Shown here: positions 55 to 12,607 of the stretch, in pieces | Position numbering within the stretch: the stretch's first letter is position 1 | How the letters are laid out: each line of letters opens with the position of its first letter | DNA from: Methylotenera sp. | Lineage (GTDB): Bacteria; Pseudomonadota; Gammaproteobacteria; Burkholderiales; Methylophilaceae | Direction: 5' to 3' | Assembly: GCF_029945535.1 (NCBI RefSeq) | Contig: NZ_JAQSCU010000003.1 | Span: forward strand, 1-48,554 | Length of the DNA stretch: 48,554 nucleotides | Position numbers and translations under genes: made by a program | Notes under the pieces: generated by a model | What the model saw: only the letters and a program-made list of their open reading frames with translations | Database searches by the model: none | What the model was told of the DNA's origin: nothing

Positions 55-462
55 CTATTAGCAATCAATTTCTCTTAAATGTTGTGGATGCCACCTTCAA
101 TTTTCCAGAATAGTGTTCATGGAACACAATTTACTATTTCATTTTACTGAATAATTAACTGTTATTTAGTCTTTCAAAACCATACTCTAGGTAATAATTT
201 TGTTACCTGTAGATCAGGTAAGTAAAAGCTGTGATGGCTTAGATAATGCATTTTCAGATGAAGTGGCAAGCTAATTTATAAGTGCCAAACATATAGAAAA
301 CTGATATTGGATCGTTACGTTATTAAGCATGAGTCTACGCATTTCCTAAACATATTTTTGATTGATGTGTAAGAAATGAATGACTGGCACGACTAACGAT
401 TGCTTAGTGCAATTTCCCAATTTTGGGATTTAACTTTTAAATAATCAAATCAGGAGATTTTC
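55..462. other. AT-rich non-coding stretch with a promoter for the EF-hand gene
   Basis: No supported gene is present between the IS end and position 463. The only structures seen are a short inverted repeat at 189-208 (AGGTAA/TTACCT arms) and the ECF-type promoter motif at 368-393. The sequence next to the IS end does not read as part of any recognisable interrupted gene. Confidence 0.6.
368..393 (+). promoter_or_regulatory. ECF-type promoter motif TGTAAG-N16-CGAC, site 1
   Basis: TGTAAG at 368-373 and CGAC at 390-393 are separated by exactly 16 bases, about 70 bp before the EF-hand gene. The same two boxes with the same spacing occur before the yedZ1 operon and before msrB. Around the second box sites 1 and 2 are nearly identical (GCACGACYAACGAT). 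A -35/-10 pair with this spacing suits a group IV (ECF) sigma factor. Assignment to the sigma factor at 5505 is inference. Confidence 0.6.
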
Positions 463-939
463 ATGACTTTTCAACACACAAAATTAGCTTTAATTGTCGG
501 AGCACTTCTTTCAACAGTAGTTTTTTCTAATTTTGCATCTGCGGATGCGATGGTAGGCACAGGTGGTTACAACCGTGAGATGCACACGATGGGCATGATG
601 AAAATGATTGATGCCAATGGTGACCATATGGTTTCACAAGACGAGTTCACTGAATTCTACGGCTCTCTTTTTGACATGTTAGATGCCAATAAAGACGGTG
701 CTCTTGACGCTAAAGAATGGGTCGGTGTTAAAGGGCATACTGCGTTAAGCATCACTACTGGGGGTTATGCAAATCAACTACGCACCATGAAAATGATGGG
801 TAAGATGGATACTGATGGCGACCATAATGTTACCAAAGAGGAGTTCCTAAGTTTCCATGAAGCCGCCTTCAAAACCATGGACAAAAAAGGTAATGGCATC
901 ATTGATGCACAGAATTGGTTAAGTAAACATGCTGGTTAA
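463..939 (+). CDS. Exported Met-rich EF-hand protein
   Basis: This 158-residue protein has a Sec-type signal peptide (about residues 1-27, ending ASA). Four EF-hand-like loops follow: D50-E61, D74-E85, D116-E127 and a weaker one at D140-N151, where the last acidic ligand is Asn. The first three have the DxNxD or DxDxD pattern needed to bind calcium. The helices before loops 1 and 3 are unusually Met-rich (MHTMGMMKM, and MKMMGKM before loop 3). An AGGAG ribosome site precedes the ATG. It stands alone, with a promoter motif upstream and a hairpin downstream. The function is not known. Sharing a promoter type with methionine sulfoxide reductase genes suggests that its exposed Met residues take part in periplasmic oxidant buffering, which is inference. 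Confidence 0.85.
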   Translation: MTFQHTKLALIVGALLSTVVFSNFASADAMVGTGGYNREMHTMGMMKMIDANGDHMVSQDEFTEFYGSLFDMLDANKDGALDAKEWVGVKGHTALSITTGGYANQLRTMKMMGKMDTDGDHNVTKEEFLSFHEAAFKTMDKKGNGIIDAQNWLSKHAG

Positions 940-952
940 GTTATGACCAACA

Positions 953-990
953 CCACATACAAGGTCGGCTTTTAATGGACCTGTATGTGG
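953..990 (+). terminator. Hairpin terminator after the EF-hand gene
   Basis: Arms CCACATACAAGGTC and GACCTGTATGTGG pair over 13 bp with one bulged A, starting 14 bp after the stop codon. Only a short T-rich stretch follows (CTTTAAG), so it could also be an mRNA-stabilising hairpin. Confidence 0.6.
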
Positions 991-1037
991 CTTTAAGAAA
1001 ACTAAGCATTATTTTTTAATAAATAATTAAAATTAGT

Positions 1038-1063
1038 TGTAAGTAAATGATTCACAGCACGAC
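1038..1063 (+). promoter_or_regulatory. ECF-type promoter motif TGTAAG-N16-CGAC, site 2
   Basis: TGTAAG at 1038-1043 and CGAC at 1060-1063 have a 16-base spacer. The second box continues as CAACGAT, matching site 1 at 6 of 7 positions. It lies about 80 bp before the cytochrome b gene and would drive yedZ1-yedY1-mrpX. Confidence 0.6.
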
Positions 1064-1141
1064 CAACGATACAGAAACCTAAATTAGATTTTCTAACTTT
1101 TGAGAAGAATTAGTTTATAACTTAAGAGAGGCTAATATTTT

Positions 1142-1759
1142 ATGCAAATATCTCTTCATCCGCGCTATGTAAGAATATGCCATTGGGTCAATGCATTAGC
1201 TATATTTTTGATGGTCACAAGTGGCTGGCGAATTTACAACGCTTCACCTATTTTTAACTTTCTATTTCCTAAATCCATAACAATCGGTGGTTGGCTTGGA
1301 GGTGGAATACTATGGCATTTTGCAGCGATGTGGATGTTAGTAATAAATGCATTGATTTATTTGATGGTAAATATTTTATCTGGTCGAATGCAATCCAAAT
1401 TCCTTCCGCTTTACCCCAAACAGTTGTTCACTGATTTACGTAATGCACTTTTATTAAAACTTCAACATTCTGATATTACCCATTACAACGCTGTTCAAAA
1501 AGCAGCTTACTTATCTGTAATGCTTGGGATTTTCATAGCTATTATTTCTGGTTTAGCCGTATGGAAGTCTGTGCAATTTCCACTTTTAAGAGAGTTAATG
1601 GGTGGATATGACAATGCTCGAGTGGTGCATTTTTTTGCAATGACATTCATTGTTTCTTTTGTAATGATTCATTTACTAATGGTGGCATTAGTACCAGCAA
1701 CACTTAAAACCATGTTGTTCAGCCGTAAACAGGTCATTCAACAAGGAGCGGACAAATGA
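1142..1759 (+). CDS. Cytochrome b561-type membrane subunit, YedZ1-like
   Basis: This 205-residue protein has about four hydrophobic segments (roughly 15-35, 55-78, 122-142 and 160-185). Histidines at positions fit for binding two b-type haems are H14, H59, H163 and H177. This is the layout of the cytochrome b561/hydrogenase cytochrome b family. It overlaps the following molybdopterin protein by 4 bp, so the two are coupled. The likely job is to pass quinol electrons across the inner membrane to that exported reductase. The arrangement with a Met-repeat protein matches the yedY1-yedZ1-mrpX hypochlorite-response locus described in Azospira suillum. That the electrons reach protein methionine sulfoxide is inferred from that precedent. 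Confidence 0.85.
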   Translation: MQISLHPRYVRICHWVNALAIFLMVTSGWRIYNASPIFNFLFPKSITIGGWLGGGILWHFAAMWMLVINALIYLMVNILSGRMQSKFLPLYPKQLFTDLRNALLLKLQHSDITHYNAVQKAAYLSVMLGIFIAIISGLAVWKSVQFPLLRELMGGYDNARVVHFFAMTFIVSFVMIHLLMVALVPATLKTMLFSRKQVIQQGADK

Positions 1760-2529
1760 GCAAACGTTCACCTAATGATTTAATAGATACAAAATATCTT
1801 ATCAAGCAAGTCGAGAAAGAACTAGAGAGCTCTAGCCGAAGATTGTTTGGTAAACAAATACTCAGCCTTGGTAGTTTATCTCTCCTTAGCGGTTGTGCGC
1901 TAACTGATGGAGATTCAGCCGAGAAAATGCTTGTGTCTGTATCGCGCTGGAATGACAGAGTACAAGCTTTTCTTTTTGATCCAAATAAATTGGCCCCAAC
2001 TTATCCAGAAAGCATGATTACAAAGCCATTTCCATTCAATGCTTATTACGGTGAAGATGAAATACGGGATGTTGATGGCACTAGATATAAATTGGAACTT
2101 GGTGGCTTAATTCGAGAGCGTAAGCCTTGGACCCTGAGTCAGCTTGCCATGTTGCCGCAAACGAGCCAGGTTACTCGCCATATATGTGTTGAAGGATGGA
2201 GTGCTATTGGCAAATGGGGTGGAGTTCGATTTTCCGACTTCCTTAAAATGGTGGGGGCAGATACTACTGCAAAGTATGTCGGTTTTAAGTGTGCTGATGA
2301 CTACTACACAAGCATCGATATGCCAACAGCGCTCCATCAACAAACCTTACTTACGCTGACCTTTGCTGACCGGATTTTACCTCGTGAATATGGCTTTCCA
2401 ATGAAATTACGAATCCCTACAAAACTAGGTTTTAAGAACCCAAAACATATTACAGAGATATACGTAACAAATGATTATCCCGGTGGTTACTGGGAAGATC
2501 AAGGATATAACTGGTTCGGCGGTGCCTGA
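1756..2529 (+). CDS. Exported molybdopterin oxidoreductase, YedY1/MsrP-like
   Basis: This 257-residue protein is of the sulfite-oxidase fold family (oxidoreductase molybdopterin-binding domain, about 95-245). C144 in RHICVEGWSAIGKWGG is the expected molybdenum ligand. The N-terminus carries a twin-arginine motif (SRRLFGK, R28-R29). A hydrophobic stretch ending LLSGC (C47) follows, so it may be a Tat-exported lipoprotein. It starts four bases inside yedZ1. By analogy with YedY1 and MsrP it should reduce methionine sulfoxide in periplasmic proteins, with the Met-repeat protein encoded next as the probable substrate. Activity on other S-oxides or N-oxides cannot be excluded. Confidence 0.85.
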   Translation: MSKRSPNDLIDTKYLIKQVEKELESSSRRLFGKQILSLGSLSLLSGCALTDGDSAEKMLVSVSRWNDRVQAFLFDPNKLAPTYPESMITKPFPFNAYYGEDEIRDVDGTRYKLELGGLIRERKPWTLSQLAMLPQTSQVTRHICVEGWSAIGKWGGVRFSDFLKMVGADTTAKYVGFKCADDYYTSIDMPTALHQQTLLTLTFADRILPREYGFPMKLRIPTKLGFKNPKHITEIYVTNDYPGGYWEDQGYNWFGGA

Positions 2530-2577
2530 GCTTGTTTTTTGGCAATTTTGCCTATTTTAAAAGTGGAGTAATAAATC

Positions 2578-2847
2578 ATGTCTAAATTATTAAGTGTTTT
2601 ACTAGCAGCAACTTTAACATTCTGTATTTCAAGCTCATTCGCAGACGAAATGAAAAAAGATGAAATGGCAAAAGAATCTATGTCAAAAGATAATATGGCT
2701 AAAGACGGTATGAAGAAAGATGAAATGAAAAAAGACAAAATGATGAAAAAAGATCACATGTCTAAAGATTCAATGAAAAAAGATGGTATGAAGAAAGATG
2801 AAATGGCTGGTGACGACATGAAAAAAGAGGAAATGAAACACGAGTAA
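2578..2847 (+). CDS. Pentapeptide MXKDX repeat protein, MrpX-like
   Basis: This 89-residue protein consists of a signal peptide (1-22, ending FA) and a purely repetitive mature part. Met recurs every fifth residue from M25 to M55. One inserted residue resets the register and the period continues from M56 to M86. The mature chain has 14 Met in 67 residues, with Lys, Asp and Glu between them. This matches the MXKDX pentapeptide repeat family and the MrpX peptide of the Azospira suillum hypochlorite response, thought to act as a sacrificial methionine sink regenerated by YedY1. It sits 48 bp after yedY1, with a GGAG ribosome site. Confidence 0.88.
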   Translation: MSKLLSVLLAATLTFCISSSFADEMKKDEMAKESMSKDNMAKDGMKKDEMKKDKMMKKDHMSKDSMKKDGMKKDEMAGDDMKKEEMKHE

Positions 2848-2860
2848 TTCTAAGTAACTT

Positions 2861-2896
2861 AAAACAGGCTCATTTATTCATTTGTGAGTCTGTTTT
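2861..2896. terminator. Bidirectional terminator between mrpX and the LysR gene
   Basis: AAAACAGGCTCA pairs with TGAGTCTGTTTT with a single mismatch across a 12-base loop. The A-tract on one side and T-tract on the other allow it to end transcription from both convergent genes. Confidence 0.8.
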
Positions 2897-2915
2897 CTGG
2901 CTATAAGTATGACAC

Positions 2916-3815
2916 CTAGTTCAATGCTGGGTCAGCACGAAGTCGTTCAATTGCCATATCTAGAAAAGTTCGTGCTTTTCTAGTTGCATGTCTACCTTCG
3001 TGATGCACTACATGTACAGGTAGTGCTGGCGGTTCAAATTCACTCAATACAACTTTAAGTTTCCCATCACGCAATTGATCCGATACCTGATAAGACATAA
3101 GTCGAACAAGGCCGAAACCACTTTCTACAGCCGCTACAGCTGAATCGTTAGTAGATGTTGTTAGTCGTGGTTGAAGTTTTATGATACTTGGAACTCCATT
3201 TACCATTAGTCGCCATTCCTGTGTTGGTGTCACTGCACTTGCCGATATAATCACATGTGATTGAAGTTCATCAGGAGCTTTTGGAATGCCGTGTTTTTCA
3301 AGATACTTAGGAGAGGCACAAATTATTCGACGCACATGACCTACAAGTACAGCCTGCAATGATGAGTCTGGCAACTCACCAATTCGCACAGCCACATCCA
3401 TTCCCTCATCTATCATGTTAACCACTCGATCCAAGAATAAACAAGAAGCGCTCATTTCTGGGTAACGTTGTAGATAATCAGTAATAATGGGGGTAATAAA
3501 TTTAGCTCCAAAAAGTACGGGGGCTGTCAGCGATAGTCGGCCGCGGGGACTGCTATTTATACCGCCAACCGACTCATCAGCTTCGGTGACTTCAGCTAAA
3601 ATTCGGCGGCAATCTGTGACATAACGCAGTCCTGCATCAGTTACGCGAACGACCCTTGTAGTTCGAGTTAATAAGCGGACACCAAGGTGGGATTCCAGCT
3701 CGTTAATTGCTCGAGTTACTGCTGGGGGGGATATGCTGAGTTTGCGTGCAGCACCAGCAAATCCATTGGTATCTACCACAGCTACAAAGATGTTAATTAA
3801 ATGTAGTTTATCCAA
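2916..3815 (-). CDS. LysR-family transcriptional regulator
   Basis: This 299-residue protein has an N-terminal winged HTH (about 1-60, with the LysR pattern GFAGAARKLSISPPAVTRAI). A LysR substrate-binding domain covers about 90-290. It is transcribed convergently with the mrpX operon and lies 98 bp downstream of the GST gene on the same strand. Those two genes could be co-transcribed or autoregulated together. The effector is not evident. Confidence 0.85.
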   Translation of the reverse strand: MDKLHLINIFVAVVDTNGFAGAARKLSISPPAVTRAINELESHLGVRLLTRTTRVVRVTDAGLRYVTDCRRILAEVTEADESVGGINSSPRGRLSLTAPVLFGAKFITPIITDYLQRYPEMSASCLFLDRVVNMIDEGMDVAVRIGELPDSSLQAVLVGHVRRIICASPKYLEKHGIPKAPDELQSHVIISASAVTPTQEWRLMVNGVPSIIKLQPRLTTSTNDSAVAAVESGFGLVRLMSYQVSDQLRDGKLKVVLSEFEPPALPVHVVHHEGRHATRKARTFLDMAIERLRADPALN

Positions 3816-3913
3816 GACTTTTTTCCGGCCTTAATTTTGTGTCATTTCGCAATGACGGTTTAAATGTAGTATGCGTATACTGATCTGAATCAAGCTGATA
3901 TAAACATTCCAAA

Positions 3914-4579
3914 CTATCCATCGTATTTCACTTTAAGTCGGACAAATGCTTTTATAGCATTAAGTCGATCTTGCATAATTGTTTGAACATGTGGACGTGA
4001 TTCCATAAGTTGCATGTAGCTGCTTATATCTGGTAAAACTTGTTCAAGTATATTTTCATTGTAGATTTTCTTGGTTGCTAATTGGATCATTGTAAAGTGT
4101 ACAAAAGCTACACAATCGGCGGCTGTGAACGTAGCCCCCAAAATATAGGGTGAAAACTTTGATATTTTAGTTACTGCTTCAAGCCCCTTAGTGAGTCTAT
4201 ATTTAACGTCCAGTTTAGTTTCATTCGAAACACTACCCCCAAAAAAAGACTCTTTATACAAACGGCGAGCTACCCATTCACAATTTAATTCTAAATGTTG
4301 AATAAGCTCTCTACATTTAGCTCTCTGGAATAGATCAAGAGGAAACATAGGTAATTCTGGATAAAGGTCTTCTAAATAATCCAAAATAACTTGGGACTCA
4401 GACAAACTACCGTTTCCTGTCTCGATATACGGTATCTTTCCTAGCGGTGAGGATTGACCTAATAGCTCTTGTTGCCAGGGATAAACCAACTTCTCTTCAA
4501 ACGATATGTCTTTCTCGAGCATTATCAATTTGAGTTTATTGTAGTAATTGCTAACCCCGAAACCGCACAAAGTAATCAT
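3914..4579 (-). CDS. Glutathione S-transferase family protein
   Basis: This 221-residue protein has an N-terminal thioredoxin-like GST domain (about 1-78). It carries the cis-proline P50 in GKIPYIE and the glutathione-binding E61-S62 pair. An all-helical C-terminal domain follows. The position of the catalytic cysteine or serine is not typical (SNYYNK near residue 10, possibly S10). The role in conjugation of electrophiles is general to the family. It sits in a cluster of redox-defence genes and shows no promoter motif of the ECF type. Confidence 0.8.
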   Translation of the reverse strand: MITLCGFGVSNYYNKLKLIMLEKDISFEEKLVYPWQQELLGQSSPLGKIPYIETGNGSLSESQVILDYLEDLYPELPMFPLDLFQRAKCRELIQHLELNCEWVARRLYKESFFGGSVSNETKLDVKYRLTKGLEAVTKISKFSPYILGATFTAADCVAFVHFTMIQLATKKIYNENILEQVLPDISSYMQLMESRPHVQTIMQDRLNAIKAFVRLKVKYDG

Positions 4580-4932
4580 CCGAATATCCCTGCTACTTTA
4601 GAAAAATGCTGTGTTTATCTAGTATCTGAAAGTGTCTCATACTTTATAGGATTACGATAAATTGTGACAATAATGTCCCCCATTTAGCTGTGATTAAATA
4701 TTTGGATAGAACAGTCTATTTGGACTAAGACTGTTTCTGGAGATGTCTAAATCTGTTGCAGTACAAATAACTCAATCTTTTCTCATTCGAAAAATATAAC
4801 TTCATTATTCCACCTCACGCAACTATGAATTACATATAACGTATATTCCGAATTTTAGTGGGTTCAATGATACTGCTGTTAGCCCGGCGCAAATTGCAAT
4901 GGTCAAATCCTCAGGCTCCATGAGAAACCAAC
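4580..4932. other. Non-coding region before the AhpD-like/sigma operon
   Basis: The 353 bp between divergent genes must hold promoters for the GST gene and the AhpD-like/sigma pair. I find a perfect 8-bp hairpin at 4710-4735 (AACAGTCT/AGACTGTT). I find no copy of the TGTAAG-N16-CGAC motif, so the sigma gene is not obviously autoregulated by it. Nothing else is recognisable. Confidence 0.55.
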
Positions 4933-5508
4933 ATGAACCGTATTAGTATTATTGATCATAAAAATGCCAATGCCGAACAAAGGAAAATGCTTAACAGCAT
5001 TCAATCAAGTCAGGGAATCGTGCCAAACCTTCTCAAGGTATTTGTTAACTCTCCAGTTGCATTAAAAGCATTCCTTGGCCTGCAAGGAGTATCAAATGCG
5101 GGATCACTTTCTCCCCAGACTAGGGTACGTATTGCATTAGCTATAGCAGAACAGTACTCAAGTGAATACTGTTTATCTTTATATACAGTTTCAGGACGAA
5201 GAGTCGGTCTTACAGGAAATGAGATGACCTCGAATCGTAGTGGATCAAGTGAGGATGCACGGGCTTCAATAGCCATTCGATTAGCATTGAGTATCTCAAA
5301 AAATATGGGGGATATTTCAACTTTTGAGCTAATCGAGGCTCGCGAAGCTGGATATAGGGATGCTGATATTGTCGAAATTATTACTCATGTTGGCATGCAT
5401 CTACTAGCAAGCATGTTGAGCAAGGCTAGCAATATCGATATTGACTCACAAGATGTGCAGCCGATCTACACAAGTCCAACTATAACAAAATCGGAACCTT
5501 CACCATGA
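4933..5508 (+). CDS. Degenerate AhpD/carboxymuconolactone decarboxylase-like protein
   Basis: This 191-residue protein is collinear with the intact paralogue at 6392: both begin with about 30 residues ending GIVPNL, and the active-site region falls at the same numbers. The paralogue has C77, C80 and H84. This protein has S77, C80 and Y84, so the CxxC/His peroxidase relay is lost and only one Cys remains. The C-terminus carries an extra polar tail of about 15 residues. The stop codon overlaps the start of the ECF sigma gene (ATGA, 5505-5508), giving translational coupling. I infer a non-enzymatic role, possibly as a partner or sensor for the sigma factor. A decaying duplicate is the plain alternative. 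Confidence 0.75.
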   Translation: MNRISIIDHKNANAEQRKMLNSIQSSQGIVPNLLKVFVNSPVALKAFLGLQGVSNAGSLSPQTRVRIALAIAEQYSSEYCLSLYTVSGRRVGLTGNEMTSNRSGSSEDARASIAIRLALSISKNMGDISTFELIEAREAGYRDADIVEIITHVGMHLLASMLSKASNIDIDSQDVQPIYTSPTITKSEPSP

Positions 5509-6239
5509 ATCTTGCTTATTCTAAGACAAGTTTAACTCCAGTTACACACTCCTTACATGCAATATTGGCTAGCAAGTTAAGCTCTAATGATTATGTGCGT
5601 GATATTCAACTACAGGATTTATCGAGTAGTCTAAATTTTAATATCATTAACGATGCAACAATTACACATATACACCAAATTGAACCAAATAAAGTCAATC
5701 ATGAATTTGTCGAACTAATAGTCGCAATGCGGCCTATGCTGGAAAGAGTGGCTAGACTCAAGCTTCGCAATAGTGCATGGGCGGAAGATGCTGTTTCGGA
5801 CACCATAGTTGCTGCGTTGGAAAGGCCAAGTGCATATTCAGGTCGTTCGATGATGCGTACTTGGTTAGTGGGAATCCTAAAAAACAAAATTGTTGATCAA
5901 ATTCGTCGCCACACACGTGAATGCCAGAGCATTTCTTTCGAAGATGATGTGGATATTAGTGACTTTATGCCTACTAATGAAAGTATTGAGGACGACTTGC
6001 AAGCCAAATGGAGCAATCCAGAAGAAAGTTTAAGTAAACTACAATTCATTGCTAAACTGAATCTATGTCTTAAAGAAATACCCGTGCAGCAAGCAAATGC
6101 GTTCATTTTGAAATATGCACTAGATAAAGACACAGATGAAATATGCGATGAACTTAGTATTACTACAAACAACTTAAATGTAATGCTACATCGAACTAAA
6201 GTTCAGCTACGCATATCGATGCAAGTTCAGTACTTATGA
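5505..6239 (+). CDS. ECF-type RNA polymerase sigma factor
   Basis: This 244-residue protein has a sigma-70 region 2 (about 70-137, with ERVARLKLRNSAWAEDAVSD) and a region 4 (about 181-236, ending NNLNVMLHRTKVQLR). The motif DTDEICDELSITTNNL is characteristic of one ECF subgroup. About 65 unassigned residues precede region 2, longer than usual. It overlaps the degenerate AhpD-like gene by 4 bp. No zinc-type (zf-HC2) or NrsF-like membrane anti-sigma gene is found on either side, which is unusual. A shared promoter motif before three nearby transcription units makes those its likely regulon, by inference. Confidence 0.85.
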   Translation: MNLAYSKTSLTPVTHSLHAILASKLSSNDYVRDIQLQDLSSSLNFNIINDATITHIHQIEPNKVNHEFVELIVAMRPMLERVARLKLRNSAWAEDAVSDTIVAALERPSAYSGRSMMRTWLVGILKNKIVDQIRRHTRECQSISFEDDVDISDFMPTNESIEDDLQAKWSNPEESLSKLQFIAKLNLCLKEIPVQQANAFILKYALDKDTDEICDELSITTNNLNVMLHRTKVQLRISMQVQYL

Positions 6240-6391
6240 GCTAAAGCTATATTAATAATTATTCCATTTAAAGGAATTATATATTGCAATAAAAGGATAT
6301 TCTTCTAATTTATGTAATTGGCTATAGTAGATCCATTCGCTAGAACTAACGTGAATAAACTAAACTTTAAACATATAAATGGAGAATTATC

Positions 6392-6940
6392 ATGGCTAGA
6401 CTTGTTATACCATCTGTAGAGAAATCACCAGAAGCTTCTAAACCTTTGTTAGATGCTGTAAATAAACAATTAGGAATTGTGCCAAATCTGATGAAACTTG
6501 TCAGCAACAGCCCCGCTGCCCTTGAGGGGTATTTATCATTGAATGCTGCTTTAGGTAAAGGCGTATTGCCAGTAACTTTACGCGAAAGAATTGCACTTAC
6601 AGTTGCAGAGTTTAATGAATGTGAGTACTGCTTAGCTGCGCATACATATATTGCCCAAAATATTGCTAAAATTGATGTAAATGAAATTGAAGCAGCCCGC
6701 AGCGGAACATCTAGTGATCCAAAAACTGAGGCCGCTTTGCATTTTGCATATCGTGTTGCATCACAACGCGGTAAAGTTATTGATCAAGATTTAAGAACAT
6801 TACGTGATGCTGGTTTTGATGACGCAGGCATTGTTGAAATTGTGTTGAACGTAGCCCTAAATGTACTAACTAACTACATAAATAATGTGGCTCTAACGGA
6901 TGTAGATTTCCCTAAAGTCCAACTTAAAAAAGTAGCTTAA
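6392..6940 (+). CDS. AhpD-like carboxymuconolactone decarboxylase family protein
   Basis: This 182-residue protein has the complete AhpD-type active site: E73, C77, C80 and H84 in AEFNECEYCLAAH. Such proteins use a CxxC pair and a nearby His for thiol-dependent peroxidase or disulfide reductase chemistry. A GGAG ribosome site precedes the ATG. It lies 153 bp after the sigma gene and is a paralogue of the gene at 4933. It is probably a peroxidase-type stress protein. The substrate and electron donor are unknown. Confidence 0.82.
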   Translation: MARLVIPSVEKSPEASKPLLDAVNKQLGIVPNLMKLVSNSPAALEGYLSLNAALGKGVLPVTLRERIALTVAEFNECEYCLAAHTYIAQNIAKIDVNEIEAARSGTSSDPKTEAALHFAYRVASQRGKVIDQDLRTLRDAGFDDAGIVEIVLNVALNVLTNYINNVALTDVDFPKVQLKKVA

Positions 6941-6950
6941 TTAGAAGTAT

Positions 6951-6985
6951 ACGCTTGCTAGTGCACATAGATTACCAGCAAGCGT
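6951..6985 (+). other. Hairpin in the leader of the FMN reductase gene
   Basis: A perfect 9-bp stem (ACGCTTGCT/AGCAAGCGT, 17-base loop) ends 12 bases before the next ATG and is not followed by a T-tract. It may terminate the AhpD-like transcript, or occlude or protect the start region of the next gene, which lacks a clear ribosome site. Confidence 0.45.
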
Positions 6986-6997
6986 TGAACGCAACTC

Positions 6998-7540
6998 ATG
7001 AAAATATTGGCTATTTCAGGTAGTCTTAGATCTAAATCACATAATACTGCCTTATTGCAAACTGCGATGCGCGTTGCGCCAGTAGATATTACTATAGAGG
7101 TTTATACTGACCTCGGTCACCTGCCACTAATTAATCCTGATTTAGAAACTATACTCCCTCCAATAGTAGCTATATTACGTAGTAAATTAATGGAATCGGA
7201 TGCTGTGTTAATAGCGACTCCAGAATACGCTCATGGTATTACGGGATCTTTAAAAAATCTTCTGGACTGGATGGTTAGCTGCGAGGCTTTTGTAAACAAA
7301 CCAGTTGGACTGTTTAATACATCGCCTCGGGCAGTTCATGCTCAAGCATCACTAAGAGAAGTTATTTCAGTAATGTCAGCTTTAATTGTCACAGAAGCAT
7401 CTGTAACTTTGCCAATACTAGGCTCAAAATTGAATGAAAAAGAGATGATTTACGACCCAACCATTACGACAATGCTAATTAAGGCACTTAGTGCATTACA
7501 GTTATTTACTATTCAGCAAAATTTAGAAATAAAAATCTAA
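6998..7540 (+). CDS. NAD(P)H-dependent FMN reductase family protein
   Basis: This 180-residue flavodoxin-like protein begins with the FMN phosphate-binding SGSLRSKSHNTALL (7-20). It has the family motif PEYAHGITGSLKNLLDW (75-91). Relatives reduce FMN, quinones, azo dyes or chromate. It follows the AhpD-like gene by 57 bp on the same strand and fits the local theme of quinone or electrophile detoxification. No good Shine-Dalgarno is visible, and a hairpin sits just upstream. Confidence 0.82.
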   Translation: MKILAISGSLRSKSHNTALLQTAMRVAPVDITIEVYTDLGHLPLINPDLETILPPIVAILRSKLMESDAVLIATPEYAHGITGSLKNLLDWMVSCEAFVNKPVGLFNTSPRAVHAQASLREVISVMSALIVTEASVTLPILGSKLNEKEMIYDPTITTMLIKALSALQLFTIQQNLEIKI

Positions 7541-7568
7541 CTAAAGTCGTTTAAAACTTAATATGGCA

Positions 7569-7599
7569 ATTATAGGCTGACTTTATGTCAGCCTATAAT
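7569..7599. terminator. Strong hairpin between convergent genes
   Basis: A perfect 13-bp stem (ATTATAGGCTGAC/GTCAGCCTATAAT) has a 5-base loop. It lies between the FMN reductase gene and the convergent DUF1348 gene and probably serves both, although T-tracts are short. Confidence 0.75.
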
Positions 7600-7624
7600 T
7601 CGATCCACTGAGGAAAACCGTTAT

Positions 7625-8104
7625 TTACAAACCTAGATCACTCAACCCAGGGTGATCATCTGGACGACGCCCAAGAGGCCAGTGAAACTTACGCTCTGAC
7701 TCATTGATTGGTAAGTCATTGATACTTGCAAAACGCTTTTGCATTAATCCGTTTTCATCAAACTCCCAGTTCTCATTTCCGTATGATCGGAACCAATTGC
7801 CATTTTGATCGCACCATTCATACGCGAAACGAACTGCAATTCTGTTGTTTTCGAATGCCCATAATTCCTTGATTAAGCGATACTCGACTTCATTTGCCCA
7901 TTTACGAGTTAAAAATGCTTCAATTTCCTCTCTTCCGTGTGGAAATTCAGAACGGTTGCGCCAAACACTATTTAATGTGTAGGCAAGAGCAACACGTTTG
8001 GGGTCACGACTATTCCATCCATCCTCAGCCATTCTTGCTTTCTGAATAGCTGTTTCACGAGTAAAAGGGGGTAGAGGTGGGCGAGTTTCATTAATAGTAT
8101 TCAT
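7625..8104 (-). CDS. DUF1348 / NTF2-like small protein
   Basis: The protein has 159 residues counting from the ATG at 8104, which has AGGAGA seven bases upstream. A longer reading frame to 8185 would overlap the upstream gene and has no such site. The sequence ([31 protein letters not shown]) matches the DUF1348 group of the NTF2-like superfamily, a cone-shaped fold with a hydrophobic pocket. The function is not known. It is encoded 40 bp after the PNPOx-like gene, probably in one operon. Confidence 0.8.
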
Positions 8105-8144
8105 AGCATTTCTCCTATTCAATAAATTATGTTGATTAACATTA

Positions 8145-8747
8145 TTATTTCTGTTGCATGAGCTCTCGAAGCCGTTTGTTTTCATCTATTAAAGGTTTTA
8201 AAACGTGTTCTAACTCAGCTTCGGTATAACGTCTAGTGATATGCTGTGGGCAGTTCCATTCGAAGGCTTCAACTTTAATTAAAATCCCTCTTTCTACACG
8301 CGCTCGATAGCCTGGAACTTCAAGGCGAGCAATTAATTCAGGCTCATTCTCCTTATGGATAATATGTGTTTTACCCCATACCTTAAGACGCCTTCGATTG
8401 GGATAATCCATTAAAATAAGTGAAATACAGTTGTTAAAATTTAAGTTTCCAACACTAATGTACTGCCTATTCCCCGTGAAGTCAGCATAACCAATCGTGC
8501 TGGAATCTAACACTCGTAAAAATCCTAAGGGGCCGCCTCGATGCTGCACATATGGCCACCCAGACTCGGAAACAGTAGCTTGATAGAAGCTATCGCGTGA
8601 CTCGATAAACGTAAGCTCACGTTCATCCAACTCACTGCTTAGTTCTTCCATTTGTTCATAGCCTCTATTACGCTCTCGACTGCCGTATCGACTCTGAGCA
8701 GCTTTAACGCTATCAGTAAAGCAAATATTGGAAAATGCATTGGACAT
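8145..8747 (-). CDS. Pyridoxamine 5'-phosphate oxidase-like flavin-binding protein
   Basis: This 200-residue protein has the split-barrel PNPOx fold pattern. It includes [26 protein letters not shown] (about 47-72) and [23 protein letters not shown], typical of FMN-binding general-stress members. It most likely binds FMN, with no evidence for true pyridoxine oxidation. It is first in a two-gene unit with the DUF1348 gene. The 250 bp upstream hold its promoter, but I see no recognisable operator. Confidence 0.8.
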
Positions 8748-9000
8748 TGTAAAACCTTATCTTTTTCCACGGAAAACTGAAGCTACCTCGGGAATTTTCA
8801 TTTATTCTTTCAACTTAAATATATATCAAAGTAGAAACGTCTACGACAATTCTGACAGATAATACTAATGATAAGAATATCTATAAATTGCAATATACAA
8901 TTCCAAATAATGGAATTGTATAAATGGATATTTTCGCTTTAATTATTAAATAAAATGAAATGGTATAAGGTAGTTTATATTTTATTGGTCGAGCAAATTG

Positions 9001-9678
9001 CTATTGAACTTCAACAGATCGGATTTGAGTGGATAATGCAGACTGACGATTTAGGAAAAAATCGTGAAGTAATTCAGAATAGTTTGAAACCACAGCGCTC
9101 TTGACTGAAGGACGATCAGCTAATCTTCGCCTCCAAGCAGATACCTTGGGAAGGTTATTAAAAAAGCCAAAATCTTTGATTACTTCAAGCGTATCAAAGT
9201 ATCGAAAAACTGGACCAAAGACGGCATCTACGATAGAAAATTGGATTCCATTAAAGTAAGGCTGATCGTTAAGGACTGCCTCAATATGCTCAAACTTTGC
9301 TCTAATTTCAACGACTTTAGCTTCTAGCAACAAATTATCAGTTGCATTATAAAAGCCACCAATGGAGTTTAATATTGATGATCCAAATTCCATCCATGCA
9401 CGATTTTCCGCACGTTTTAGCGCATCTTCTGGGTGCATAAAAGGATAATGCGAGTCTTCAAGATATTCACATATAACGGATGATTCAAATATTGGACTTT
9501 CATTTACAAGCAAGACTGGAGTCTTGCCAAGAGGTGAAATCTTTAAAAACCAATCAGGCTTATTTGCAAGATCAATATCTTTTCTCTCAAATGAAATGCC
9601 TTTTTCATTAAGTACAATTGCCACACGTTGAACATATGGACAAAGTTTGTGACTAATTAGTGTTAGATGTTGTGACAT
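9001..9678 (-). CDS. Cys-type glutathione S-transferase family protein
   Basis: This 225-residue protein has a GST N-terminal domain with CPY at 13-15, the usual place for a redox-active or catalytic Cys in beta, omega and stringent-starvation-type GSTs. The cis-proline is P54 and the glutathione-binding pair is E65-S66. The helical C-domain spans about 90-205. A Cys at this position favours thiol transfer or dehalogenation over simple conjugation. It lies downstream of the msrB-msrA unit on the same strand, 81 bp away. Confidence 0.82.
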   Translation of the reverse strand: MSQHLTLISHKLCPYVQRVAIVLNEKGISFERKDIDLANKPDWFLKISPLGKTPVLLVNESPIFESSVICEYLEDSHYPFMHPEDALKRAENRAWMEFGSSILNSIGGFYNATDNLLLEAKVVEIRAKFEHIEAVLNDQPYFNGIQFSIVDAVFGPVFRYFDTLEVIKDFGFFNNLPKVSAWRRRLADRPSVKSAVVSNYSELLHDFFLNRQSALSTQIRSVEVQ

Positions 9679-9759
9679 AACTTTCTCATAACTTTAAAAA
9701 TACCTTAACCATCCAAGATATTAATTTAATATCATTTAACTTTCGTTTTTACGCAATTC

Positions 9760-10476
9760 TTACAAGACTACGTTACTTAGTTTTACGGGATGATCAAGAT
9801 AATATTTCGGAAATAGATGCTTTAAGTTTTCTACTTTAGGTAAGTCATTTATTACAATGTAGGAATAGTTTGGATTGTTAATTAAAAAGTCCTGATGATA
9901 ATCCTCAGCCGCATAAAAACCTTTAAAAGGATCAACTCGAGTAGCAATAGCATGTGGATATACTTTAGATTTGTTTAACTGTGCAATATAAGACTCAGCA
10001 ATATTCTTCTGAGACTCATTACTGTAGAAAATTTCCGATCGATACTGAGTACCTGAATCTGGGCCTTGCCTGTTCAGTAAGGTTGGATCATGAGCTACTG
10101 AAAAGAAAATGTGCAGTAGCTGACCATATGTCACTTCGGCAGGATCAAAGGTAATCCGAACTGACTCGGCATGCCCAGTTGCTCCTGTACTTACTCTATT
10201 ATAATCAGCACTACTCTTGTCTCCTCCAGCGTATCCTGCCACCACCTTACGTACACCTTTAACATGCTCAAAAACACCTTGAACGCCCCAAAAGCAGCCA
10301 CCAGCTAAAACTGTAGTTTGAAGAGTTCCTGTGGCCTTTTGATTATCAATTGTAGGAGGAGCAATAATCGTTGGTGCCTCACCTGCCTTTAAATGCGGTT
10401 GCCATAAAGTGTAAATTGCGCCGATTACTATTATAGAAATTAGTTTTTTATTCCAACCATTTTTAGTGAATAACAT
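9760..10476 (-). CDS. msrA: Peptide-methionine (S)-S-oxide reductase, membrane-anchored/exported
   Basis: This 238-residue protein has an N-terminal hydrophobic segment (about 11-26) acting as an anchor or uncleaved signal, then the MsrA domain (about 53-215). The catalytic C61 lies in the hallmark GGCFWGVQ. No other Cys exists in the protein, so the usual resolving cysteines are absent and recycling must use an external thiol. It repairs S-epimer methionine sulfoxide, here on the periplasmic side. It is 44 bp downstream of msrB in one operon. The shared upstream motif ties it to the same stress response as the YedY1 operon. Confidence 0.93.
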   Translation of the reverse strand: MLFTKNGWNKKLISIIVIGAIYTLWQPHLKAGEAPTIIAPPTIDNQKATGTLQTTVLAGGCFWGVQGVFEHVKGVRKVVAGYAGGDKSSADYNRVSTGATGHAESVRITFDPAEVTYGQLLHIFFSVAHDPTLLNRQGPDSGTQYRSEIFYSNESQKNIAESYIAQLNKSKVYPHAIATRVDPFKGFYAAEDYHQDFLINNPNYSYIVINDLPKVENLKHLFPKYYLDHPVKLSNVVL

Positions 10477-10520
10477 TGATTACTCCTTAAATCATATAAG
10501 TGTTAAATTGACGTCAGCCG

Positions 10521-11129
10521 TTAAGTTCTTGGAATGAAATTCAACGCCACAGAATTCATGCAATAACGCAAGCCTGTGGGTTGCGGCCCATCGTTAAATA
10601 CATGTCCAAGATGAGCGTCGCATCGGTGGCACGATATTGCATCGCGTTGCATACCAAGGCTATTATCTAAGCTCTGTATTACATTAATTGATGATATGGG
10701 CTTCCAGAAACTAGGCCAGCCTGTACCAGATTCGAATTTCGTTTTTGAGTCAAAAAGAGCAGTATTACAACAAATACAGCGGTAAACTCCATCAGCGTGA
10801 TTGTTCCAATACTTACCAGTGTATGGTGCTTCTGTACCGGCACGACGAGTTACTTGATAAGTTAATAGCGGCAATTGAACACGCCAATCAGCATCACTTT
10901 TAACCACTTGCGGCAAACGAACGACACCTTCACTTTTCCCATTTGTCGAGAAATTCTCTATTGATAGCTCTTGTCCAGGTTTAAGGTTAGAACTACTATC
11001 TGCAAAAGCATTAGCTATCAATGTGTTGGCCACTGTTGAAACCAAAACATACTTGAGTAAATTTCGACGGGTAATAAATTTCTTTTCAAGCGACTGATCT
11101 ATGGTTTTGCTAATTGGTTTCGACATCAT
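10521..11129 (-). CDS. msrB: Tat-exported peptide-methionine (R)-S-oxide reductase
   Basis: This 202-residue protein begins with a twin-arginine signal (R21-R22 in TRRNLLKY, hydrophobic to about residue 43, ending AFA). The MsrB domain covers about 75-200. Zinc ligands C118/C121 and C167/C170 and the catalytic C190 (RYCMNS) are all present. It reduces R-epimer methionine sulfoxide in the periplasm. It is first in the msrB-msrA operon with the ECF-type promoter motif about 47 bp upstream. The different export routes of the two enzymes are notable: Tat here, an N-terminal anchor for MsrA. Confidence 0.93.
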
Positions 11130-11175
11130 TTTTCATCCTAAGGTAACAATAGGTAATTCTTGATTACCTTCCTTT

Positions 11176-11201
11176 GTCGGCGGATGCGGTTAAAACTTAC
11201 A
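11176..11201 (-). promoter_or_regulatory. ECF-type promoter motif TGTAAG-N16-CGAC, site 3
   Basis: Read on the minus strand, TGTAAG (11201-11196) is followed after 16 bases by CGAC (11179-11176), 47 bp before the msrB start. Box sequences and spacing are identical to sites 1 and 2. The spacer is unrelated, which argues for functional conservation and against recent duplication. Confidence 0.6.
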
Positions 11202-11332
11202 GATGCTTAGGAATATTTTTTATAGATAAGATTGTGAGTAGTTAATTGAATGTAATTTTCTTTTACGCAATTGCATTCAAAAAGTATCAGAAAATGTCCC
11301 TAAATAGCCATAGCACTGATTTTGAATGTCAG

Positions 11333-11782
11333 CTATTCTACGTTTGCCTGCTTCGGCATACGACGAAATCCACCAGCCATGCGGTTCCAAAAATTGGCCA
11401 ATGATATGGATATACTTAATTCAACAATTTCTAAATCTGAAAAGAATTGTTTCATCGTACTGTATTCAGTTTCTCCCGCGTGGGTTTGCGCAATGTTCGT
11501 CAGTGATTCAGCCCATGCTAACGCTGCTTTTTCACGCTCATCAAAGAAAGGTGACTCTTTCCAGACAGGCAAACTGTCAAGGCGTTGTTGTAATTCACCA
11601 AGTTTTCTAGACTCTCTAAGATGTAAATCTACACAATAAACGCATCCGTTGACTTGCGAGACACGCGTTTCAACTAAGGCCCGTAGCTTTCCATCAATAG
11701 TGAACTGCTCAAGCCCTTGAGTAATATTGCGCATTTTTGTAATAAGTTCTGGCGAATGTAAAAAGTAATCAATACGTGACAT
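11333..11782 (-). CDS. AhpD-type carboxymuconolactone decarboxylase family protein
   Basis: This 149-residue protein has an intact AhpD-type active site, C47, C50 and H54 in NGCVYCVDLH, within a helical bundle. It is the last gene of the hxlR-monooxygenase-AhpD unit, 38 bp after the previous stop. It is probably a thiol peroxidase or alkylhydroperoxidase-like protein acting with the quinol monooxygenase-like protein in electrophile or quinone stress, inferred from its neighbours. Confidence 0.82.
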   Translation of the reverse strand: MSRIDYFLHSPELITKMRNITQGLEQFTIDGKLRALVETRVSQVNGCVYCVDLHLRESRKLGELQQRLDSLPVWKESPFFDEREKAALAWAESLTNIAQTHAGETEYSTMKQFFSDLEIVELSISISLANFWNRMAGGFRRMPKQANVE

Positions 11783-11820
11783 ATATGTTTAGATTTAGTA
11801 ATTTTATGAAATGAGTTTAA

Positions 11821-12102
11821 CTAAAGAATTTGCTGCTCAATTTCATCTAAGTAAATAAAGTTAGGCGCTTTGACGCCAGCTTTCTGTCTTATTTGAATTA
11901 ACTCAGGTGATTCAAAAAATCGCCGAGCGTTTTCTAACGTAGACCACTTGGAAAAATGCACAATATTATTTGCATCACTTTCATAACGTAGTAATTGGTA
12001 GCTTATTTCACCAGCTTGTTTTCTCATTACTGCAGCTTGATCAAAAATGGCCTTCCAAGCAGGGTATGACTCCACCTCATGAATAATTAGTACGTGATGC
12101 AC
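11821..12102 (-). CDS. Antibiotic biosynthesis monooxygenase (ABM)-like small protein
   Basis: This 93-residue dimeric ferredoxin-like domain protein has sequence features of the ABM superfamily (repeated strand-helix pattern, VESYPAWKAIFDQAA and FSKWSTLENARRFFESPE). Members oxidise quinols or polyphenols or degrade haem without cofactors, but several have no known activity. It starts one base after the stop of the HxlR regulator gene, so co-expression is expected. Confidence 0.75.
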   Translation of the reverse strand: MHHVLIIHEVESYPAWKAIFDQAAVMRKQAGEISYQLLRYESDANNIVHFSKWSTLENARRFFESPELIQIRQKAGVKAPNFIYLDEIEQQIL

Positions 12103-12103
12103 A

Positions 12104-12607
12104 TTAGCCTCTACTGTTCATTTTTAATTTACTAGATGCCAATCTAGCTAGGACTCCTTCGGTAGCACCCTGGCCTGGCTGAACGGTGACGTTTTCATAA
12201 GTAATGGCTAACAAACTCTGCTTGTCAGTGAGTATAGGTTCTAGCAATTTGCCAGTTAGGCGATCGGCTAATTGAACATAAGCACCATTAGGCGCCAAAT
12301 GCTGATTCCCCCATTTGGTTAGCGTAACCAGTACTGGAAAAAAATCACGACCCTTCTCAGTCAAGATGTATTCATATCTTTTTGGCCGCTCTATGTAGAT
12401 GCGTCTTTCCAGCAAGCCATTTTCTGTTAAGTGCTTAAGTCGCCGTGTCAGACTGTTAGTTGCAATTCCCAAACTGTTCTGGAATTCATCAAACCTTGAA
12501 AGTCCGAGAAATGCATCGCGCAAAATTAAAATACTCCACCATTCTCCTACACATTCTAGGGCTTGCGCTGCCGAACAATCCATTCCTTTGAAGCTGGTAT
12601 GTTTCAT
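12104..12607 (-). CDS. HxlR-family transcriptional regulator
   Basis: This 167-residue protein has an HxlR winged HTH (about 11-105). C11 lies in the N-terminal FKGMDCSAAQ, the position where YodB, HypR and QorR carry the redox-sensing Cys that reacts with quinones, aldehydes or hypochlorite. A second Cys is at 19. It is followed with a 1-bp gap by the ABM-like gene, then by the AhpD-like gene, so it probably controls its own operon. Sensing of electrophiles is inferred from family precedent. Confidence 0.85.
   Translation of the reverse strand: MKHTSFKGMDCSAAQALECVGEWWSILILRDAFLGLSRFDEFQNSLGIATNSLTRRLKHLTENGLLERRIYIERPKRYEYILTEKGRDFFPVLVTLTKWGNQHLAPNGAYVQLADRLTGKLLEPILTDKQSLLAITYENVTVQPGQGATEGVLARLASSKLKMNSRG

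Follow-up and report, generated by a model that had tools for sequence, protein, structure and literature searches.

Conserved TGTAAG-N16-CGAC sites in Methylotenera as probable promoters of an envelope oxidative-repair regulon, with a recurrent site inside the gene of the most likely sigma factor

Extracytoplasmic function (ECF) sigma factors are already known to control Msr and DoxX/DUF692-type genes (PMC2893595, PMC3240639, PMC7907618) and, in group ECF16, yedYZ-mrpX (PMC5748585, PMC8315932). In Neisseria, sigma-E (NMB2144/NGO1944) with its zinc (ZAS) anti-sigma factor MseR controls msrA/msrB and a DoxX-DUF692-DUF2063 operon (PMC2893595, PMC3240639), and a single promoter lies ahead of the whole autoregulated operon, sigma gene included (PMC2893595). 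Haemophilus influenzae RpoE2/HrsE mediates an ECF hypochlorite response with msrAB and a DoxX cluster (PMC7907618), and the ECF16 pairs SigF/NrsF (Azospira) and BcrS/AbcS (Brucella) drive an MXKDX peptide and YedYZ/MsrPQ-type genes (PMC5748585, PMC8315932). We analyzed a 48,554-nt stretch of Methylotenera sp. (NZ_JAQSCU010000003.1; hereafter the window), which makes up all of contig C3 in a 19-contig assembly of 3.0 Mb. In it, three TGTAAG-N16-CGAC sites lie ahead of an EF-hand gene, the yedZ1-yedY1-mrpX operon and msrB-msrA. Sequence comparisons lead us to suggest with good confidence that these are ECF-regulon promoters for envelope oxidative repair, mainly read by a sigma factor encoded on contig C12 of the same assembly, and that a further site within that sigma gene is directed toward its anti-sigma gene.

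The motif occurred exactly three times in the window, on both strands, at the positions where a preliminary description had placed it (Table 1). The gap between the end of each site and the start codon that it precedes is 69 bases for the EF-hand gene, 78 for yedZ1 and 46 for msrB. Their spacers differ, as also described, though sites 1 and 2 have CACGACyAACGAT in common. The probability that the three are a product of chance is practically negligible; abundance near control levels in related genomes would fit such an origin, but 0.03 sites were expected in the window, none of 100 dinucleotide shuffles contained three or more, and the same motif precedes the same genes in other genera.

Table 1 Coordinates of sites and genes in the window and elsewhere in the genome
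Feature	Location	Strand	Basis or context
Site 1, promoter-like TGTAAG-N16-CGAC(TAA)	368..393	+	ahead of EF-hand gene
EF-hand protein, secreted-looking (signal peptide by eye), 158 aa	463..939	+	Pfam EF-hand
Site 2, promoter-like TGTAAG-N16-CGAC	1038..1063	+	ahead of yedZ1-yedY1-mrpX
yedZ1, cytochrome b561-type membrane protein	1142..1759	+	PF01292
yedY1, molybdopterin oxidoreductase, distant MsrP likeness	1756..2529	+	PF00174
mrpX, MXKDX repeat peptide, 89 aa	2578..2847	+	TIGR02953
ECF sigma, orphan, same broad family as C12 sigma	5505..6239	+	Pfam Sigma70_r2, r4_2
msrA with N-terminal anchor or signal (by eye)	9760..10476	-	TIGR00401
msrB with N-terminal extension (Tat-like by eye)	10521..11129	-	TIGR00357
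Site 3, promoter-like TGTAAG-N16-CGAC	11176..11201	-	ahead of msrB-msrA
Exact site	C4:10525		within fxsA, unrelated coding sequence
Exact site	C6:149317		~155 bases to ATG of bufferin operon (small Cys-rich protein, DUF692 enzyme, DUF2063)
Exact site	C6:153392		31 bases ahead of DUF1223 gene
Exact site	C10:10344		within penicillin-binding protein gene, unrelated coding sequence
Exact site	C10:773116		42 bases ahead of DoxX gene
Exact site	C12:42454		within ECF sigma gene
Exact site	C14:228		53 bases ahead of rubredoxin gene
ECF sigma on contig C12	L033:5999-6556		PF04542 and PF08281 (regions 2, 4)

We found ten exact sites in the host genome compared with two for the reversed-pattern control, and eight of the ten had a sensible target, such that the regulon is wider than the three window operons. 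Bufferin operons were recognized by PF05114 (DUF692) and PF09836 (DUF2063), present in both operons, while their small proteins gave no confident Pfam match and were named by context. The DoxX gene on C10 adjoins a ferric-reductase-type (MsrQ-like) gene and a YedY-like gene, the latter named by eye. Relaxed variants (TGTMAG-N16-CGWC) were considered and not counted as members: there were 16 in the host genome against 11 for the control, five of the six additional sites were inside long frames, and no frame of at least 70 codons was found at the sixth (L401).

Conservation was assessed in 150 genomes of the family, the host included, using the 30 best loci per gene and the reversed pattern as control. 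Denominators of 30 retain one locus without upstream DNA (L133), one broken gene (L132) and two with 2 upstream bases (L307, L346). DUF1223 occurred in 47 of the 150 genomes, with an exact site near the start in 25 of 30 loci, including three whose site a mechanical start call put within the coding frame or 281 bases off; one more locus had TGTCAG and one N17. DoxX was present in 57 genomes, with an exact site in 21 of 30 loci. For MsrB (100 genomes), the site was found in four of 30 loci, namely the close, N-terminally extended ones with upstream DNA, our own among them; a fifth close locus had 2 bases upstream only, and none of the 25 more distant loci had a site upstream. The reversed control gave zero in each of these sets. 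All three other close yedZ1-yedY1-mrpX operons in the 150 genomes carried the site, and ten distant YedY loci (34–46% identity), one of which begins at a contig edge, had none. The EF-hand gene occurred in 36 genomes with a site ahead in two of 30 loci, two further cases (G019 and G036) coming from coordinate comparison, and it is judged from its upstream DNA to be an occasional regulon member only.

Motif abundance gave a different picture, and the enrichment that the host genome had shown was not repeated in the relatives. Raw counts were 428 sites against 453 for the control in the 77 genomes that encode a C12-type sigma factor and 83 against 214 in the 73 genomes without one. Ahead of a Fisher test, one internal site per genome was deducted in 76 of the 77, leaving 352 exact sites against 453. 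Because the raw count in relatives is not above the control, the case rests on site position and conservation rather than abundance. On that footing the sites resemble ECF-type promoters serving one envelope methionine-protection regulon, a reading that the comparisons support. The single regulon of the preliminary description is supported in this respect, but it is wider than had been stated and includes the EF-hand gene only occasionally.

Bases that were not part of the search were also conserved. Among 56 distinct sites outside sigma genes, CGAC was directly followed by T (84%), A (98%) and A (100%), T occupied the ninth (66%) and tenth (79%) base, and A was found six bases past CGACTAA (70%), yielding the full consensus TGTAAG(G/T)NTT-N12-CGACTAA. 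This fits the Neisseria sigma-E promoter (−35 GTMAGBWTT, spacer 12–13, −10 CGTCTAAH; PMC2893595), with GTMAG..TT, the spacer length and CG-C-TAA held in common and one −10 base different (CGAC vs. CGTC). A conserved A six bases beyond the Neisseria −10 likewise coincides with the mapped gonococcal msrA/msrB start (PMC2893595). In a gonococcal record, TGTCAG-N16-CGTC is located 37 bases ahead of the DoxX frame of a DoxX-bufA-bufB-bufC-sigma-anti-sigma array.

The most likely main reader of these promoters is the C12 ECF sigma factor, a relative of Neisseria sigma-E whose gene is directly followed by a zf-HC2 zinc (ZAS) anti-sigma gene. It resembles the sigma-E/MseR type in regions 2 and 4, the adjacent ZAS anti-sigma gene, the consensus and, as judged by sites, its targets, although control in our case is predicted from sites only, before msrBA, DoxX and the bufferin operon. 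Differences from Neisseria are the −10 CGAC and the inclusion of yedZ1-yedY1-mrpX and DUF1223. C12-type sigma factors were found in 77 of the 150 family genomes, two of them as fragments. DUF1223 was present in 44 of these 77 genomes and in 3 of the 73 others, the corresponding counts for DoxX being 53 and 4, in co-occurrence tests that took sequences as independent and ignored phylogeny and genome size.

The preliminary description had assigned the sites to the ECF sigma factor encoded at 5505 in the window, which is probably wrong because the other 149 family genomes yielded no ortholog (matches were 30–41% identical and mostly C12-type) while sites persist there ahead of DUF1223, DoxX, envelope-type msrB and yedZ1-yedY1-mrpX. 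The 5505 sigma lies on the same contig as the window sites. It and the C12 sigma are distant paralogs within one broad ECF family (38% identity) and have much of the region-4 helix in common. Neither a C12-like anti-sigma gene beside it nor an exact site ahead of its own operon was found, and that it alone reads the sites is very unlikely. A tentative alternative, doubtful but worth keeping in view, is that both factors read the sites, the 5505 sigma having been acquired as a second reader with another input through an N-terminal extension and coupling to a CMD gene. The extension of 60-odd residues was common only to its three close relatives (74–83% identity over 99%) among 1064 protein matches, the next being 56% identical, and the first 4 bases of the sigma gene are also the last 4 of a CMD-family gene (4933–5508); against a second reader, some helix residues differ between the two sigma factors.

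Azospira SigF had been offered as a parallel, but a SigF/NrsF pair of that type is extremely improbable as reader of the sites. ECF16 factors do drive yedYZ-mrpX homologs in Azospira and Brucella, and their −35 TGTAAC is similar (PMC5748585, PMC8315932). However, the membrane anti-sigma factor of that group, NrsF (DUF1109, PF06532), was not found in the genome by a search in which the Caulobacter control was found, and the ECF16 motif described in these sources, (T/C)GTAAC-N17-CGAA, differs in spacing and −10 from the window motif, the consensus of which is closer to Neisseria sigma-E.

We also assessed the exact site inside the C12 sigma gene. The motif spans codons 153–161 of 185, in sigma region 4 (Pfam match 124–171), and was followed through 75 family orthologs. 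These came from 98 sigma loci, ten named and 88 from the family, of which the 75 scoring over 220 bits to the C12 sigma were aligned; the 13 family loci left out comprised the window sigma, fragments and diverged paralogs (exact site in one fragment, CGTC form in two paralogs, none in ten). The two paralogs, in same-genus genomes (L047, L053), are diverged second sigma genes with TGTAAG-N16-CGTC in region 4, that is, with a Neisseria-like −10. Codon 153 was TGT in 75 of 75 orthologs and codon 154 AAG in 75 of 75, compared with 219 of 743 Lys codons elsewhere in the same genes. Codon 160 was NCG in 74 of 75 (exception L067) despite variation in the residue (A 35, T 17, P 14, S 8, K 1), while 589 of 2483 NCN codons elsewhere ended in G. 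Of the 80 positions at which a residue with degenerate codons was conserved, 153 and 154 alone used one codon in >97% of the genes.

The pattern extended to 87 genes from 36 other families of the order (130 of 300 genomes matched; 27 returned loci and 60 picked by best score, then family coverage). The exact motif was present in 39 and the CGTC form in six; TGTMAG-N16-CGWC was found in 60, covering 30 of the 36 families. Without selection on the motif, the site Cys was TGT in 70 of 81 genes, compared with 27 and 31 of 87 genes for two further conserved Cys. In the same comparison, K/Q codons ended in G in 67 of 68, and NCN codons ended in G in 66 of 74 versus 32% elsewhere. Changes from K to Q turn the DNA into TGTCAG, which is the A/C ambiguity of the Neisseria −35. 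A same-strand ZAS (H-x3-C-x2-C) anti-sigma frame lay downstream in all 142 site-bearing (TGTMAG-N16-CGWC) sigma genes (74 + 1 + 2 from the family, 60 from other families, five named). A site upstream of the sigma gene was found in three of the 142 loci, about 1 kb off (median ~745 upstream bases available). For the C12 sigma itself, no exact site was found upstream, so that sigma autoregulation is not indicated, and its internal site ends 94 bases ahead of the first possible anti-sigma start.

We infer that the internal site is a promoter giving anti-sigma-only feedback. A constraint on the protein or on codon usage, or a nucleic-acid signal of another kind, is an unlikely explanation: the site does sit in a conserved protein segment, but the residues vary (A/T/P/S; K/Q) while CG and TGTMAG stay, the same bipartite motif precedes other genes, and the two other conserved Cys have no TGT bias. 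The codon data point instead to selection at the DNA level, and in at least 30 families of one order besides its own the sigma gene probably holds the promoter that its product reads in the codons of the reading helix, with the anti-sigma gene, and in some lineages also the bufferin operon, dependent on the sigma factor, the sigma gene left out, and the helix residues limited to K/Q and A/S/T/P. Intragenic promoters in ECF settings exist. In the Caulobacter cabp-sigV system, a promoter within the coding sequence of a periplasmic EF-hand protein drives the sigma gene, in contrast to the site described here, which lies in the sigma gene and points toward the anti-sigma gene (PMC13171946). The direction also differs from Neisseria, with its promoter ahead of the sigma gene. 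The open-licence literature, searched by title and abstract start, yielded no report of an anti-sigma gene driven by a promoter within its ECF sigma gene. As far as the literature was searched, a Neisseria-type promoter for yedZ1-yedY1-mrpX, membership of DUF1223 and rubredoxin, and the intragenic sigma site are new.

Several results, besides the simplifications of the co-occurrence tests, weigh against a regulon under the C12 sigma with an internal promoter. The genome holds ten sigma70 region-2 genes, and the comparison of specificity covers the C12 and 5505 factors only. Nine of the 30 DoxX loci have no site. The internal site is lacking in 27 of the 87 order-level genes, including all four of one family (f44), and in the gonococcal, Burkholderia glumae, Halomonas and Enterobacter sigma genes. 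Ten named loci were divided evenly, with the exact motif in five (two Roseateles, Pelomonas, Hydrogenophaga and a Burkholderiaceae metagenome-assembled genome) and none in five; the flanks of the five site-bearing loci yielded no further site, with bufB near in four, such that only the anti-sigma gene is linked in these. Cupriavidus metallidurans rpoQ-rsqA/gig was considered as a named relative and rejected, since no site occurs in the stretch concerned (L395) and the sigma encoded there scored only 19 bits against the C12 sigma.

Taking the motif, its position and conservation, codon-level selection and gene order as observed, we propose a circuit in which the pairing of sigma factor with promoter, the oxidant signal, promoter activity in the sigma gene and the feedback are the predicted parts. 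Oxidants would act on the zinc anti-sigma factor and free the sigma factor, which would start transcription at the consensus. Targets would include yedZ1-yedY1-mrpX, msrBA, the bufferin operon, DoxX and DUF1223, and in this strain also the EF-hand and rubredoxin genes. The site in the helix-turn-helix codons of region 4 would direct transcription at the anti-sigma gene and, in Methylophilaceae, usually at a bufferin operon behind it too. Active sigma factor would raise its own inhibitor and not itself, and the response would end.

Pfam and NCBIfam agreed with the gene identities given in the preliminary description (EF-hand, b561, molybdopterin oxidoreductase, ECF sigma, MXKDX, MsrB and MsrA). 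YedY1 scored 70.6 bits against the MsrP model (NF003767), under the cut-off of 207, and is not MsrP proper, and the 5505 sigma scored 149 bits against TIGR02943, under the cut-off of 162. MrpX scored 67 bits against TIGR02953 (cut-off 41) and adjoins YedYZ-type genes, as expected of an MXKDX peptide; Met makes up 15 of its 89 residues, and 14 of the 158 in the EF-hand protein. On a Rahnella plasmid (L402:2517-5150), a yedZ-yedY-MXKDX operon adjoins a response regulator and a HAMP-domain gene, not an ECF sigma gene, and the mrp operon thus seems to change regulators. A second EF-hand paralog, 51% identical, is encoded in the Methylotenera genome (G000:C12:61480-61941). Between the window's repair operons (2916–12607) are two GST genes, three genes or frames of the CMD family, an FMN reductase and a PPOX-type flavoprotein; some of these were identified by Pfam/NCBIfam, and the third of the CMD frames was recognized by eye. 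The words gggtgggtca and ggtgggtcag are repeated at the contig start (1–60), perhaps a mobile-element edge.

These comparisons caution that the nearest sigma gene should not be assumed to be the reader of an ECF site. If the proposed regulon is correct, it would provide a promoter consensus of practical use for an ECF/zinc anti-sigma system that is widespread but little studied. It would also bring bufferins, DoxX and DUF1223 together with methionine-sulfoxide repair, both Mo-dependent and classical, in one testable regulon. The predicted circuit, with feedback through the anti-sigma factor only, is unlike the usual sigma autoregulation, and a promoter laid over recognition-helix codons would mean that one stretch of DNA carries two codes.

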